NCBI RefSeq assembly: GCF_002022415.1
Contig: NZ_MUBG01000001.1
Coordinates: 372,001-436,000, forward strand
Direction: 5' to 3'
Source of the DNA: Bartonella sp. WD12.1
GTDB lineage: Bacteria > Pseudomonadota > Alphaproteobacteria > Rhizobiales > Rhizobiaceae
DNA length: 64,000 nucleotides
Of the stretch, positions 43,298 to 49,553 are shown one piece after another (within the stretch, counting starts at the first letter, position 1; each line of letters starts with the position of its first letter). The notes under the pieces were generated by a model, which had not been told where the DNA came from, ran no database searches, and saw nothing but the letters and a program-made list of their open reading frames with translations. The position numbers and the translations under genes were made by a program.

Positions 43298-44149
43298 CTA
43301 TTCTTTATGGAGCCATTTATAGGTAATTTGCGCACTCTTATCCTGTCCAAGACGGTTAATAAGGAAAGGAGTAAGTTTTTGCATTTCTTCTTCAAGAAGA
43401 TAAGGAGGATTGATAAGAATCATACCACTCCCATTCATTGTAGTTGGTGTTATTTTTTTTCGAATACGCATTTCAAGCTGGAGAATTTTTGGAATTCCCG
43501 TTTTATGTAGAGCATGAAGAAAATTCTCGATTTCTTCATTATATTTAACAGGATACCATAAAGCGTAAGTGCCTCCAGAAAAACGTCGATATGCTTTCAC
43601 CACCCCATCAATGAGACGAGAAAATTCATCAGGTTTTTCAAAAGGTGGATCAACAAGAATAAACCCACGTTTTTCTTTTGGTGGTAAGTGAGAATTTAAA
43701 GAGAGCCAACCATTTAAATGCAAAATTTTTGTTTGATAATCGCCGGCAAAGTTGTTTACTAAGGTTTGGTAATCTTCCTTATGTAATTCAATAGCAGTGA
43801 GCCGGTCTTGCTTACGCAATAGTTGACGGATAAAAATAGGTGATCCAGGATAGAATATAAGCTCTTTATTTCCTTTATTTATTGTATTAATGACATTACA
43901 CCATGGATGTAAGAGTGTTTTCACATCTTCCGGAATGGGTGTTGACAAAAGCCTTCCCACGCCATCACGCCATTCTCCTGTTTTATGTGCTTCTAGGGAA
44001 GAGAGATTATAAAGTCCAATTCCTGCATGCGTATCTATAACGCGAAAAGCTTTTTCTTTACGTTTGAGGTACTCTACGATGCGTGTGACAATAATGTGTT
44101 TAAAAACATCAGCAAAATTGCCAGCATGATAAATATGCCGATAATTCAT
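43298..44149 (-). CDS. rlmJ: 23S rRNA (adenine2030-N6)-methyltransferase
   Basis: The protein begins MNYRHIYHAGNFADVFKHII, a hallmark of RlmJ (YhiR). It has the methyltransferase loop VIDTHAGIGLYNL and the catalytic DPPF motif in FILVDPPFEKPDEFSRL. RlmJ methylates A2030 of 23S rRNA. I chose the third codon of the open frame (44149) as start because the family begins there; two further codons upstream (from 44155) are possible. The 283-residue length is normal. It is monocistronic. Confidence 0.94.
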   Translation of the reverse strand: MNYRHIYHAGNFADVFKHIIVTRIVEYLKRKEKAFRVIDTHAGIGLYNLSSLEAHKTGEWRDGVGRLLSTPIPEDVKTLLHPWCNVINTINKGNKELIFYPGSPIFIRQLLRKQDRLTAIELHKEDYQTLVNNFAGDYQTKILHLNGWLSLNSHLPPKEKRGFILVDPPFEKPDEFSRLIDGVVKAYRRFSGGTYALWYPVKYNEEIENFLHALHKTGIPKILQLEMRIRKKITPTTMNGSGMILINPPYLLEEEMQKLTPFLINRLGQDKSAQITYKWLHKE

Positions 44150-44155
44150 AACCAA

Positions 44156-44637
44156 ATTTTATCATATATATGATTGATTGACCAAAATTCTTTTATTTCT
44201 TTTTAAATCTTTTTTTGATGTAAAATAACAATTTTATGTATCAGTGAGAGCTCTATTATAAAAGCAATATATTGATTAAAAAGGCTGATGCATCTAGAAA
44301 ACTTCACTATGCATTGGCGTTTATCCATTATATTATTTTTTACATCGATGCGATTTATATAAATGAGGTTTATCGTTAGTATTTAGGCTATTTACCAACC
44401 CAATGAAAAATTAGTGCTTGTAAAGTAAACACAGTTATTTTGTCGGAATTTTTTCAAATTATAAGATCATACTGGGTAAAATCTCTATCTTTTATTAACA
44501 TGATTATCTCGTGCTAAAATAATAAGATGATTGTACATAATATTTGTCTTTAAAATTAGTATGGGTTTGAAAGCATTTCAATTCACTCAAAATATATTGA
44601 TAAATCATTATCAAATAAATATTAAGGTTTTATAATA
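44156..44637. other. Divergent spacer between rlmJ and nagZ
   Basis: About 480 AT-rich bases with no gene. In other Rhizobiales an SPOR-domain gene usually precedes nagZ; no remnant could be read. Confidence 0.4.
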
Positions 44638-45672
44638 ATGTTAGAAATAAAAGCCATGATTACCGGTATTTCAGGTCCGGTTCTAACAAATGATGAAAAG
44701 GCATTTATTACTGAGCATAAGCCTTGGGCTTTTATTTTATTTGCGCGTAATATTAGTACCGCAGACGATATCAAAGCACTTACTGCATCTTTATGTGAAG
44801 TTAGTGAACGTGATGATATTTTTATTTTCATTGATCAGGAAGGGGGAAGGGTGCAACGCTTGCGCCCACCTTTAGCACCTAATTATCCAATGGCTGCAAC
44901 TTTAGGAGCTATTTATAAAAAAAATCAGGAAGCAGGTCTTCGTGCTGCTTGGATTATGTCACGGCTTCATGCTTTTGATTTGATGAAGCTTGGCATTAAT
45001 GCAAATTGTCTTCCGTTGTTAGATGTACCGGTGGTAGGGGCTCATGACGTTATTGGAACGCGCGCTTATGCTCAAGAACCAGAAACGGTTACTGCTTTAG
45101 GGCGTGCAGCTGCTAGGGGGCTTTTAGATGGTGGTGTTTTACCAGTAATGAAACATATTCCCGGACATGGTCGGGCATTGTGCGATACGCACTTAAAGAT
45201 GGCACGCGTAGATGCAACCTTTGATATTTTAGAACAATATGATTTTATACCTTTTAGAAATTTAGCGGATTTTCCAGCTGCAATGACTGCTCATATTGTT
45301 TATGAGGCAATTGACGATAAAGTACCTGCAACATTGTCTAAGAAAGTTGTAGAGGATATTATTCGTAAAAAGATTGGTTTTGATGGTCTTTTAATGACAG
45401 ATGATGTGTCAATGAAAGGTCTTTCAGAGAGTATATGTTCGAACGATCTTTCAGATTTAACACATAAAATTTTTGCAGCAGGTTGTGATATTGTTCTTCA
45501 TTGTAATGGTAATTTGGAAGAAATGCTTGTTATTGCTCATGCTACTCCGTTTTTATCAGGAAAAGCCTTAGAGCGTGCTTGTAATGCCCATGCTAGGGTT
45601 GGAAAGCCTGATGTGTCAGATGAGGTTGCTTTAAGAGAAGAATTTTCAAGTCTCTTAGCTTTTGTTAAATAA
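44638..45672 (+). CDS. nagZ: Beta-N-acetylhexosaminidase
   Basis: NagZ removes N-acetylglucosamine from anhydro-muropeptides in the cytoplasm during cell-wall recycling. The family signature K-H-x-P-G-H-G-x4-D-x-H is seen in MKHIPGHGRALCDTHLKMA, supplying the Asp-His dyad. The nucleophile aspartate is in LLMTDDVSMKGL. The length is 344. It was once followed by the tat genes, now fossil (see 46043-47252). Confidence 0.95.
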   Translation: MLEIKAMITGISGPVLTNDEKAFITEHKPWAFILFARNISTADDIKALTASLCEVSERDDIFIFIDQEGGRVQRLRPPLAPNYPMAATLGAIYKKNQEAGLRAAWIMSRLHAFDLMKLGINANCLPLLDVPVVGAHDVIGTRAYAQEPETVTALGRAAARGLLDGGVLPVMKHIPGHGRALCDTHLKMARVDATFDILEQYDFIPFRNLADFPAAMTAHIVYEAIDDKVPATLSKKVVEDIIRKKIGFDGLLMTDDVSMKGLSESICSNDLSDLTHKIFAAGCDIVLHCNGNLEEMLVIAHATPFLSGKALERACNAHARVGKPDVSDEVALREEFSSLLAFVK

Positions 45673-46042
45673 ATATGTAATTTTGAGTTGGCTTGATTTA
45701 TTAAATATGTTGCATAAGAGTGAAAATGGCATAACAATATTAGCTTGAGACAATCGATGTTTTGTTACGTTTCATTTAGAAAAGAAATGTACAAATAAGA
45801 TATAATTATATTTAAAATATCATTTATATAGTGAGTGTTCATGCTATGAAATTGAAGTTGGTTTCAACAATTTCAATTGTTATCAGTAAAATTTGCAAGT
45901 CAAATGCCAAAAGAAATTCTTCTTTTTTAAAAACAGGAAAAAGCCTGTTTCTAAAAAGTAATATATGAAATCACAAAGACGAAATCATAATTTTAGCATG
46001 AATCATTTTAAGTGAGAAAGTCGAGTCTAAACAATGTGTAGG
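45673..46042. other. Spacer after nagZ with a terminator-like hairpin
   Basis: No gene is readable. Relatives carry scpA, scpB and tatA here. AAACAGG (45932-45938) and CCTGTTT (45945-45951) form a 7-bp stem with a six-base loop. On the minus strand it is followed by a short T run, on the plus strand by CTAAAAAG. Role uncertain. Confidence 0.4.
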
Positions 46043-46382
46043 ATGTGGGATTAATAGGGCAAAGTTTTTAATTATCTTATTTGTTTTTATTATTGTAGTT
46101 GAATTAAAAAATTGGCCTAATGTATAATAATAAAGGCCAAGGCATATATACGTTTGACGGCCAATAAATCTCAACATCAGTTTGATGATACAATAAAATA
46201 AACTGAATTGAATAATTTGCAAAAGACATTATCAAATAACAAAAATTCCTAATCCTTACAAAGAATTAACGATTTTTTTTGATTCAATTCATGATGTATT
46301 GAAGGATATCCAAGATAATCTTGATGTAAATACGATATTTCATAAATTGGAACAAGATAAAGGCGTTTTTTACATGCGCTAA
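46043..46382 (+). pseudogene. tatB: Fossil tatB (twin-arginine translocase subunit)
   Basis: Three broken frames in order reproduce TatB. First is the membrane segment (AKFLIILFVFIIVVELKNWP, near 46059-46118), matching the TatB N-terminal helix and its conserved hinge. After stops and a frame change, SQHQFDDTIK-stop-TELNNLQKTL (46160-46240) aligns with the TatB amphipathic segment of the type FQQQFDDAVREAELDDLRKT. After another shift, NPYKELTIFFDSIHDVLKDI leads to a stop at 46382. At least two frameshifts and several stops rule out function. Position, just before tatC and after nagZ, is the expected Rhizobiales one. Identification is by reading, not alignment software. Confidence 0.75.
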
Positions 46383-46500
46383 AAAGCATTGAAATAAAGA
46401 ATTAAGGGTATTTGTTATTCATAGTTATAAGCTATAGGTATAACTTCTAAAGATAGGAAAAATAGTAAAAACGTGTCGTAAATTTAAAAAAGATAGAATT

Positions 46501-47252
46501 AACACCAGTGTAGCACCGTTTTTAGAGCACTTACGTTAAATTACGTTAGCAAGTTATTGCATCTCTAATTGCATTTTTATCACATTTTATAATGTGTTTT
46601 CTCCCTCAAGGATTATTTTTGTATTTTTTGATATAGCCTTATCAGTGGATGATAAAGATATAGGGTGGTGATCCTGAAAATATTTGTTTTCAATCAGCGC
46701 AAGTATAGGAAACTTTTTTACGAAAATAAAACTTTCCGTTTTGGGATAGCCATTTATCATTTGCCTATATGGCTTCAGCTTTATAATTTAGAGTGCCAGG
46801 GCTTTAAAAATAAGCGTCTGACTTTTTCACCATTTCTTATCAGTGCGCCGTTTTTTAATTGGGGTGCATTTGTTTACGGTTTATTAGCACCTTATGATAC
46901 TTCGGTTTAGCCTCTCTCTGAATCTTCATTGAAGAGTAAAGTTTATAGCGCGTATCTCTAGTTATCTGAACTTTGTGACTTCATTTATCTGGATTTTTGG
47001 TTTGATTTTTCAATTATCTCTTATTGCTAGGTTATTAATGAAAATTGGATTGTTGACATCTCATATGTTGCCGTCCAAATGAAAGTGGGTCGTCCTGATT
47101 TCTTTTATAATTGCGGTTATGGTAACACCATCGGATTTTTTTCTATGTTTGCAGTAGCTTTACCGACGATAATTCTCTATGAAATATCAATTTTAATTGC
47201 TTGCTGGATAGGAAAAAGAAATCCTCTTAATAGAAGTTTATATTTTGTATAA
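46501..47252 (+). pseudogene. tatC: Fossil tatC (twin-arginine translocase core)
   Basis: Most of TatC can be followed through frame changes. SVAPFLEHLR (46507 on) matches the APLxxHLxELR start, and IAFLSHFIMCFLPQG matches the first helix. GFKNKRLTFSPFLISAPFFN (near 46800) matches the PGLYKNERRAFLPFLIAAP region. ARISSYLNFVTSFIWIFGLI (46948 on) and FQLSLIARLLMKIGLLTSHM match VSEYLSLVMTLIFAFGLxFQLPV. Finally KWVVLISFIIAVMVTPSDFF and FAVALPTIILYEISIL reach the stop at 47252. An in-frame TGA at 47080-47082 replaces an Arg codon. At least three disruptions are present. An 81-codon open frame at 46665-46910 is part of this fossil, not a gene. Confidence 0.9.
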
Positions 47253-47291
47253 TAAGCAATCAAATAAAAACGATGTAAATAAGGAGTTCTA

Positions 47292-48569
47292 ATGCTCGAT
47301 ATTAAATGGATCCGTGAAAATCCTGAAAAATTAGACGCAGCTCTAAAAAATAGGGGGATTGAACCACAAGCTCAAAGGTTGATAGAGCTTGATCTTGAAC
47401 GTCGATCGCACGTTGCAAAAATACAATGTGCACAAGAACGTCGCAACGTGGCTTCAAAAGAAATAGGGCAAGCTTTAGCTGCGGGTGATCAGAAAAATGC
47501 TGAACGTATTAAAGCTGAGGTTGAGGAAATTAAAGATTTTCTTTCTTCTGCTTCAATGGAAGAAAAGCAACTAACGGAAAATCTTGAAAAGACTCTTTCA
47601 GCTATACCAAATATTCCATTAAGTGATGTTCCGGAAGGCAAAGATGAAAAAGCTAACGTTGTTGTTCGGCACTTTGGTACACCTACGACGTTTGATTTTA
47701 CACCGAAGGAACATTTTGATCTTGGTCAGAATCTTCAACAGATGGATTTTGAACAGGCAAGTCGTTTATCTGGTGCACGCTTTACAATACTTTCAGGGGC
47801 ATTGGCACGGCTTGAGCGCGCATTAGGTCAATTTATGCTTGATATGCATGTAGATGAACATGGTTATACAGAAGTTTCAGTACCTCTTCTTGTACGTGAT
47901 GAAATTGTTTATGGAGCAGGACAATTACCAAAATTTTCTGACGATCTTTTTCGAACTACAGATGGCAAATGGCTTATTTCCACAGCGGAAGTGCCATTAG
48001 TTAATTTAGTAAATAGTGAAGTTCTTGATATATCAGATTTACCTTTACGGTTTTCTTCTCTTACACCTTGTTTCCGTTCAGAAGCAGGGGCAGCTGGGCG
48101 TGATACACGTGGGATGCTGCGTCAGCACCAGTTTTGGAAGGTAGAAATGGTATCAATTACTACCGAAGAACAATCCTTAAGTGAATTAGAGCGTATGACA
48201 GAATGTGCGGAAAATGTATTGAAGCGGCTTGGGTTGCCTTTTCGTACTGTGCTTCTTTCTACTGGTGATATGGGGTTTTCTGCTCGTAAAACTTATGATA
48301 TTGAAGTTTGGCTTCCGGGGCAGGGGTGCTATCGTGAAATTTCAAGTTGTTCAGTTTGTGGGGATTTTCAAGGACGACGTATGAATGCTCGGTATCGTAC
48401 AAAAGGTGAAAAAACATTACACTTTGTGCATACTCTGAATGGTTCTGGTACAGCTGTTGGTCGTTGCCTTATTGCTATTCTTGAAAATTATCAGCAGGCT
48501 GATGGATCAGTTATTGTCCCAGATGTTTTGCAGCCTTATATGAAGGGAATAAGTCGTCTCACTATTTAA
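47292..48569 (+). CDS. serS: Seryl-tRNA synthetase
   Basis: This class II synthetase charges tRNA-Ser. It has the N-terminal coiled-coil arm (about residues 30-105), motif 2 in [20 protein letters not shown] and motif 3 in [26 protein letters not shown] precedes the ATG. The 425 residues are intact. It starts 40 bases after the tatC fossil. The surE gene usually found between serS and pcm is absent; only 133 bases separate them. Confidence 0.97.
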
Positions 48570-48702
48570 CTTGTGTGAATAAGCACCAATACACGTTTAT
48601 TATTGATAAATGATAATAGCGTTTATTAGAAAATTTGAATGCTTTTAAAAAGTAATGCACGTGTAAATAGAGTAATCGTTACATTAAAAATCGAATGATA
48701 TT

Positions 48703-49362
48703 ATGGAGCAGAAGAAAAATTTACAATTTCGTGAGGAATTGGCAAGCCTTGTACTGAAAATGCGCAGTAAAGGGGTTGATGATCTACGCTTTTTTGCTGC
48801 GTTTGAGAAAATTCCACGTCATCATTTTGTCGCTGTTCCTTGGCTTAAGGGTGCATATGATAATAAAATTATTCCAATTGAGTGTGGTGAGTATATTGAG
48901 CGTTTAGAAGAACAGCTTTTAATTCTCGCTGCGTTATCGTTGAAAAAAAAGCACCGTGTTTTAGAAATTGGTACAGGTTCTGGTTTTTGTACTGCTCTTA
49001 TGGCGTGTCTTAGTGATCGAGTGATAACGATTGATCGTTATAGAACACTTGTTGAATTGGCACGGCAAAGATTTCAAACTTTAGGGCTTGACAATATTGT
49101 TGCACAGCAGATTGACGCAAGTAAAGGTATTACGAGTTTTGGATCGTTTGATCGTATTCTTATTTGGCCATCACGCTCTGATGAACCGGAAGAATTTTTA
49201 GAAATTTTAGCTGGGAATGGAATTCTCATTCAAGCTATTGGGCCAGATGAAGGGGTGCAAACTGTTATGCGTTATACGAAAATTGGTAGCCAATTTGAAC
49301 GTTCAGAAATGTTTCAAGTACGTTATCAACCCTTTATTGAAAACGTTGCAGAAATACTTTGA
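48703..49362 (+). CDS. pcm: Protein-L-isoaspartate O-methyltransferase family protein
   Basis: The enzyme would repair isoaspartyl residues by methylation. The SAM-binding motif VLEIGTGSGFCTALMA is near residue 88, preceded by KIPRHHFVAVPWLKGAYDNK, typical of the family. The usual substrate loop G-x-T-I-S-Q-P reads GEYIERLEEQ here. The Rhizobiales branch of this family also differs at that loop, but this version is further changed. It is 219 residues and is followed by the LysM/M23 lipoprotein gene, an arrangement like pcm-nlpD elsewhere. Confidence 0.85.
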   Translation: MEQKKNLQFREELASLVLKMRSKGVDDLRFFAAFEKIPRHHFVAVPWLKGAYDNKIIPIECGEYIERLEEQLLILAALSLKKKHRVLEIGTGSGFCTALMACLSDRVITIDRYRTLVELARQRFQTLGLDNIVAQQIDASKGITSFGSFDRILIWPSRSDEPEEFLEILAGNGILIQAIGPDEGVQTVMRYTKIGSQFERSEMFQVRYQPFIENVAEIL

Positions 49363-49553
49363 TTTTTTAGGTTAAGAGGTTGTGAAGAAACCTATGTGCT
49401 CTATTTATAACAAATTCATTTTGGTCTTTTTGTGAAATTTTTATAGGTAAAATATTCAATCTTTAACTCTTAGGTAATATTAGCAAGATTTAATAGAATG
49501 AGTTGGGTATTGGCCAATAAATAAACCATATATTTGAATTTTTGAGTAACATT

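Follow-up and report, generated by a model that had tools for sequence, protein, structure and literature searches.

Remains of a tatABC operon in Bartonella and the parallel loss of Tat and the Rieske protein in the genus

The tat site between nagZ and serS

The window analysed here is a stretch of 64,000 nucleotides from the genome of Bartonella sp. WD12.1 (contig NZ_MUBG01000001.1, positions 372,001 to 436,000). Between the intact genes nagZ and serS it holds an interval of 1.6 kb without any open frame of 100 amino acids, in which remains of tatB and tatC, genes of the twin-arginine translocation (Tat) export system, can be read (Table 1). In intact congeners, tatA, tatB and tatC follow one another directly before serS. 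An initial annotation of the window had placed fossil tatB and tatC genes at positions 46043-47252, and this placement is right.

TatA, TatB and TatC sequences of four intact congeners were compared by tblastn with window positions 45673-47291. This frameshift-tolerant check, proposed in the initial annotation, gave significant matches for TatB and TatC; chance similarity as their source was rejected, since 20 base-shuffled versions of the interval gave no match. No TatA piece was found in the same region at E 0.01 with any of the four queries, in agreement with the earlier statement that tatA was unreadable. The Pfam TatC profile (PF00902) matched a single place in the whole genome, namely the relic (E 1.3e-15), and nine stops (five TGA, three TAG and one TAA) lie inside the match. 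No uninterrupted TatC frame was found over 208 family positions, the longest open frame being 111 amino acids. Alignment of the relic with the intact tatC of a congener (genome G011) at the DNA level revealed 13 indels, 10 of them frame-shifting, so that the "at least three" breaks first counted in tatC were an understatement. The reported change of Arg to TGA at 47080 is real: intact relatives carry there the Arg of an SKRKWAIL motif. The position between nagZ and serS, the order tatB-tatC and the homology to intact congeners are those of a tatABC pseudogene. Read from its sequence, the interval is a tatABC operon that has died. The Bartonella that carries it belongs to the B. melophagi group: among named records, SerS of the genome that holds the window (G000) shares 97% identity with the B. 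melophagi K-2C protein, and among the genomes of the genus it shares 97-98% with those of G029 and G038.

Genome G000 comprises 1.81 Mb in 3 contigs and is 99.98% complete. Searched genome-wide at E 0.1, the TatA/TatB profile (PF02416, TatA_B_E) gave no match in G000 and two in each of the controls G064, G023 and G040; a whole-genome search with Pfam TatC retrieved no second TatC. A second tatABC copy was therefore rejected. Since G000 contains no other TatA, TatB or TatC match, the loss of Tat is real to the extent that the assembly can show, and the initial claim that Tat export had been lost is borne out. That the relic reflects a sequencing or assembly error, or is a duplicate beside a working copy elsewhere, is scarcely credible. 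An error could account for the lone frame change of tatC in another genome, G040, where the gene is otherwise normal; the window relic carries its 10 frame-shifting indels, tatC relics also occur in the relatives G029, G038 and G012, and one frame-shifting indel is placed alike in all four genomes (G038 aligns poorly).

Table 1. Features at and around the tat site, in window coordinates
Feature	Position	Strand	Evidence
nagZ (beta-N-acetylhexosaminidase, GH3), left flank, intact	44638..45672	+	open frame of 344 amino acids; PF00933
Place of tatA in congeners, no TatA reading	45673..46046	+	no TatA match
tatB relic, two frames	46047..46370	+	tblastn with congener TatB, best E 1e-8
tatC relic, three frames, many stops and frame-shifting indels	46478..47240	+	tblastn best E 3e-39; Pfam TatC; indel count
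TGA inside the tatC relic in place of a conserved Arg codon	47080..47082	+	comparison with intact TatC of L150, L161, L180 and L191
serS, right flank, intact	47292..48569	+	open frame of 425 amino acids; PF00587, PF02403

The neighbouring gene pcm (PF01135) is whole, and no Rfam element was found in positions 44000-49500. The surroundings of the site vary in the genus: nagZ, intact in the window, has decayed in many congeners with intact tatABC; the basal genome G003 has two scpA/scpB-like open frames, recognised by eye, between nagZ and tat (L199:3726-5334), and in G011 just a 0.2 kb gap separates the two (L150:5656-5860).

Tat and Rieske genes across the genus

The genus was sampled with 71 Bartonella genomes, 14 basal and 57 non-basal, the latter being, as we take them, the vertebrate-associated ones. 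TatC is matched without stops in 59 genomes and is wrecked or gone in 11. Pfam TatC matches are broken in G000, G007, G012, G019, G029, G036 and G038; G006 and G008 have tatC relic pieces detected by tblastn alone, G046 has one small relic fragment (tblastn), and neither Pfam TatC nor tblastn found a relic piece in G047. In G040 (L178) the reading frame of tatC changes once, early in the gene, and tatA, tatB and the Rieske gene are normal; this may be a sequencing error, a fresh loss or a variable site.

A tree of 71 genomes and 3 outgroups was built from 5,862 columns of six genes that we read as uvrC, rlmJ, serS, pcm, yajC and pgsA. The Tat-less genomes form seven groups on it: G046; G047; G006; G007 with G008; G012 with G000, G029 and G038; G036; and G019. 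Seven Tat losses were counted in 36 of 40 FastTree bootstrap trees and six in the other 4. Tat was lost in parallel in the genus, six or seven separate times, and the loss seen in the window is one of these.

The Rieske subunit of cytochrome bc1 is a classic Tat cargo, and the initial annotation had stated that it would need another route or be lost. It is lost: G000 has no whole petA and no Rieske match. No pet piece was found in this genome between h146 and trmL, the neighbours of the site standing about 590 bases apart (L222:4217-4805). Throughout the 71 genomes, the Rieske gene (TIGR01416) is whole in 50, broken in 8 and without a match in 13. The genes ychF and trmL flank the pet site, and both are present in 13/13 genomes that gave no Rieske match; 9 of these yielded no pet piece at the site, and pieces remain in 4 (G015, G023, G037 and G047). 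Cytochrome c1 likewise has no match in 13/71 genomes, which are broadly but not exactly those without a Rieske match: pieces of c1 remain in G015 and G023, G019 and G062 are without any c1, and in G042 a whole-length c1 stands next to a broken Rieske gene. Cytochrome bc1 (petABC) is thus gone from G000, with the flanks of its site intact. Over the 40 bootstrap trees, the number of Rieske losses is 8-12.

The two losses are tied. Each of the 11 Tat-less genomes belongs to the set of 21 without a whole Rieske gene, and TatC is kept in all 50 genomes with a whole one, counting G040 with its one change. Ten genomes (G001, G002, G010, G015, G023, G024, G033, G037, G041 and G042) are Rieske-less and keep TatC. 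On the tree, a maximum-likelihood model that makes the Tat-loss rate dependent on the state of Rieske was better than one without this dependence (nominal p 1.6e-5, or 1.5e-3 with G040 scored as Tat-less), and p was at most 6.9e-5 over 40/40 bootstrap trees. At the level of the order, no co-loss of Tat and Rieske was seen in 374 non-Bartonella genomes among the matches listed; G314 and G378 of that sample have a TatC match and no Rieske match.

One may ask whether tatABC simply decayed with the general reduction of host-bound genomes, without any tie to cargo. Absence of tatC has been linked to genomes of 2 Mb or less (PMC3827258), many congeners show decay of the adjacent nagZ as well, and the pet locus is eroding alongside. 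Against this stands the failure of genome size and nagZ state to split the Rieske-less genomes: the Tat-less ones average 1.65 Mb (n=11) and those with Tat 1.61 Mb (n=10; p 0.83 on rounded sizes), and a whole nagZ is present in 4/11 of the former versus 6/10 of the latter. Among the 50 genomes with a whole Rieske gene, nine of which measure 1.7-1.9 Mb, there is no clear Tat loss; nagZ is whole in 7 of these 50, 10 of the loci being short, such that they may not reach nagZ. General shrinkage as the sole cause was therefore rejected, and plain genome erosion is an unlikely explanation of the loss.

Terminal oxidases and a second candidate cargo

A CtaD-like oxidase is present only in the 14 basal genomes of the 71; two of these oxidases were typed, with TIGR02891 as the best match, below its cut-off. 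All full-length heme-copper oxidase matches of the 57 non-basal genomes are alike in length and score range. There is one per genome in 55 and two, alike, in G051 and G052, two genomes with 7% and 10% contamination in their assemblies; G047 carries a further weak fragment. The oxidase of G000, the sole non-basal one typed, is CyoB (TIGR02843, above cut-off) in a cyoABCD-like cluster. Since the heme-copper oxidases of the non-basal genomes, the class of oxidase searched, are all of one kind and include no CtaD-like match, quinol oxidation need not pass through bc1 in them. B. tamiae is reported to be alone in its family in having a bd oxidase (PMC5322542). Ubiquinol-cytochrome c reductase genes have been described as unique to rodent-associated Bartonella among the genomes compared (PMC2697382). 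That statement is affected by our data because Rieske and c1 genes also occur in basal genomes and were lost elsewhere; an ancestral bc1 followed by parallel loss fits the genus-wide data better than presence in rodent-associated species only.

In the ten Rieske-less genomes that keep TatC, tatC is still under purifying selection. The mean ratio of nonsynonymous to synonymous substitution rates (dN/dS) is 0.21 (8 partly overlapping pairs, one at 0.51 with few changes), compared to 0.15 in 16 pairs of genomes with Rieske; for the control gene serS, the values are 0.125 and 0.08, respectively. A second candidate cargo is encoded by a gene that adjoins ychF, an L,D-transpeptidase with a twin-arginine lipoprotein signal of the form SRRxFLIAAPLALxGC. 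The YkuD domain (PF03734) was found in the two proteins scanned, those of G011 and G003. The signal could be read in 70 of the 71 genomes (G062 ends before it), and a twin arginine precedes the lipobox Cys in 39/70, G000 included. Both the twin arginine and a proline of the h-region are present in 10/10 Rieske-less genomes with Tat. The Tat-less genomes have the twin arginine in 5/11 and both features in 2/11; for the twin arginine, the difference between the two sets gives Fisher p 0.012, ignoring kinship. Genomes with both Rieske and Tat have the twin arginine in 24/49, its loss lying largely within a few clades. The L,D-transpeptidase of G000 (L222:1574-2224) has kept the twin arginine and has no proline in the h-region (SRRAFLMAVCLVLVGC), as in G029 and G038, and the h-region of these three is more hydrophobic (3.0-3.3 versus a mean of 2.46 in the Rieske-less genomes with Tat).

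Adding the twin-arginine state to the loss model gave a nominal p of 1.7e-4 (at most 0.0064 over the 40 trees); with the twin-arginine-with-proline state, the nominal p was 1.9e-5. As a control, a like test with reversals allowed was run on all 64 testable columns of the L,D-transpeptidase. The score of the twin-arginine state (16.2) exceeds those of 64/64 columns, and the h-region proline is the top single column (12.3).

Over the genus, the TAT_signal profile (TIGR01409) matched in 33/71 genomes; the match fell on the Rieske gene itself in 22 of them and elsewhere in 11, all basal. A search of 20 selected genomes with E values of up to 3 retrieved three signals of Rieske proteins and four weak, sub-cut-off matches; no other confident signal was reported in these 20, and neither was the L,D-transpeptidase lipoprotein. 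A search for twin-arginine signal peptides had been proposed in the initial annotation; the profile was too insensitive to pick up a lipoprotein that does bear the twin arginine. An independent indication comes from COG1376, presumably the L,D-transpeptidase group, to which the Bartonella gene may belong. This group is listed as a predicted Tat substrate in 10/10 Brucellaceae (PMC3305326). The signal and its distribution suggest that Tat is the probable export route of the L,D-transpeptidase and that this last cargo may have been rerouted where Tat was lost. Among the matches listed, there was no literature report on an L,D-transpeptidase with a Tat signal.

Proposed course and comparison with known systems

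The following course could have led to the dead tatABC operon of the window, and we give it, as a whole, a probability of about three in four. In the ancestor of the 57 non-basal genomes, the CtaD-like cytochrome oxidase would have disappeared and a bo3-type quinol oxidase would have been retained, so that cytochrome bc1 no longer had its customary partner. The petABC genes, including that of the Rieske protein, would then have been lost many times in parallel. Tat would have been retained only while other cargo, most likely the L,D-transpeptidase lipoprotein, needed it, and tatABC would have decayed where the signal of this protein drifted towards the Sec type. We infer the first step from the distribution of oxidase matches, and the order of the last two is likewise inferred. 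Tat seems to have been dropped once its last cargo was lost or rerouted. A version with a two-cargo gate, in which Tat persists as long as either Rieske or one twin-arginine L,D-transpeptidase needs it and decays after Rieske deletion and drift of the remaining signal from Tat to Sec, is put forward tentatively, at a little short of even odds.

Several points weigh against this course. Thirty-six non-basal genomes keep a whole Rieske gene although they have no CtaD-like oxidase match; therefore, oxidase loss did not force the loss of petABC. The main tree comes from a quick search with several open backbone forks, 23 of its 74 rows are under half filled (13-47% of columns), and the p values, which come from our own loss models, are nominal. 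In the order sample, G116 and G327 have a Rieske match without a TatC match and count against a strict rule, both being drafts (97% complete; 900 contigs, 7% contamination) in which the missing match is perhaps due to gaps. Columns of the L,D-transpeptidase outside its signal reach a likelihood ratio of 11, one of the two highest being opposite in direction; the nominal p values for the signal are therefore too small, and the fair reading is rank 1 in 65. The proline criterion was picked after the signals had been seen. Mean h-region hydropathy (2.80 with Rieske and Tat, 2.46 in Rieske-less genomes with Tat, 2.83 in Tat-less ones) gives no simple split. Finally, 25/49 genomes with Rieske and Tat are without the twin arginine, and therefore the L,D-transpeptidase alone does not hold Tat.

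Alternatively, another Tat cargo may decide when Tat is lost, with the L,D-transpeptidase signal following and decaying afterwards; loss of the twin arginine may also come after Tat loss. The twin arginine is kept in the Tat-less G000, G029 and G038 despite a far-decayed tatC, and G007 and G008 have lost tatC and yet keep both twin arginine and proline; these five genomes likewise weigh against the course proposed above. Since TAT_signal missed the lipoprotein, it is insensitive in this genus, and further cargo may have escaped it. On the other hand, absence of the twin arginine from 25/49 genomes that have both Rieske and Tat means that it can go first, and its state outranks 64/64 columns tested in the same protein. 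We regard a different deciding cargo as plausible, if clearly below even odds.

The range of stages found within one genus makes a general question testable: what is the minimum cargo that keeps a translocase alive? If the Rieske protein and the L,D-transpeptidase do act together in the way proposed, Bartonella would offer a natural series, run six or seven times, of an export pathway becoming dispensable cargo by cargo. The data also bear on two published statements, that Tat is preserved (PMC3305326) and that the reductase is limited to rodent-associated species (PMC2697382). Among the matches listed, no title or abstract opening reports Tat loss in Bartonella, the subscription literature lying mostly outside this search.

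The operon of intact Bartonella is the same tatABC as that of other Rhizobiales (PMC3305326). The title of that paper describes Tat as functionally preserved in alpha-proteobacteria, to which the loss in Bartonella is an exception; its main text does not name Bartonella. In Shewanella oneidensis, the growth defect of tat mutants is mainly due to PetA (PMC3623810), so that there, as in Bartonella, the importance of Tat for aerobic growth lies with the Rieske protein as its cargo; those are laboratory mutants, whereas in Bartonella the loss took place in nature. Tat loss in small genomes is already known, usually as an all-or-none trait of whole groups. Like the Tat-less Bartonella, the reduced bacterial genomes surveyed before are small and host-bound and have no tatC; there, whole groups are without it (PMC3827258), whereas one genus here holds intact genes, fresh breaks, relics and empty sites, in six or seven lines, with losses that match a named cargo. 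Because intact, decaying and empty states stand side by side in a single genus, they can be tested against cargo.

In mitochondria, the Rieske protein stays in many lines, and that of yeast is moved by Bcs1. TatC has been lost repeatedly from mitochondria as well, at least 21 losses having been counted, and the cargo in question is again Rieske (PMC6251230). In Bartonella, by contrast, the Rieske protein goes too and needs no substitute, and the relics of the translocase are still visible.
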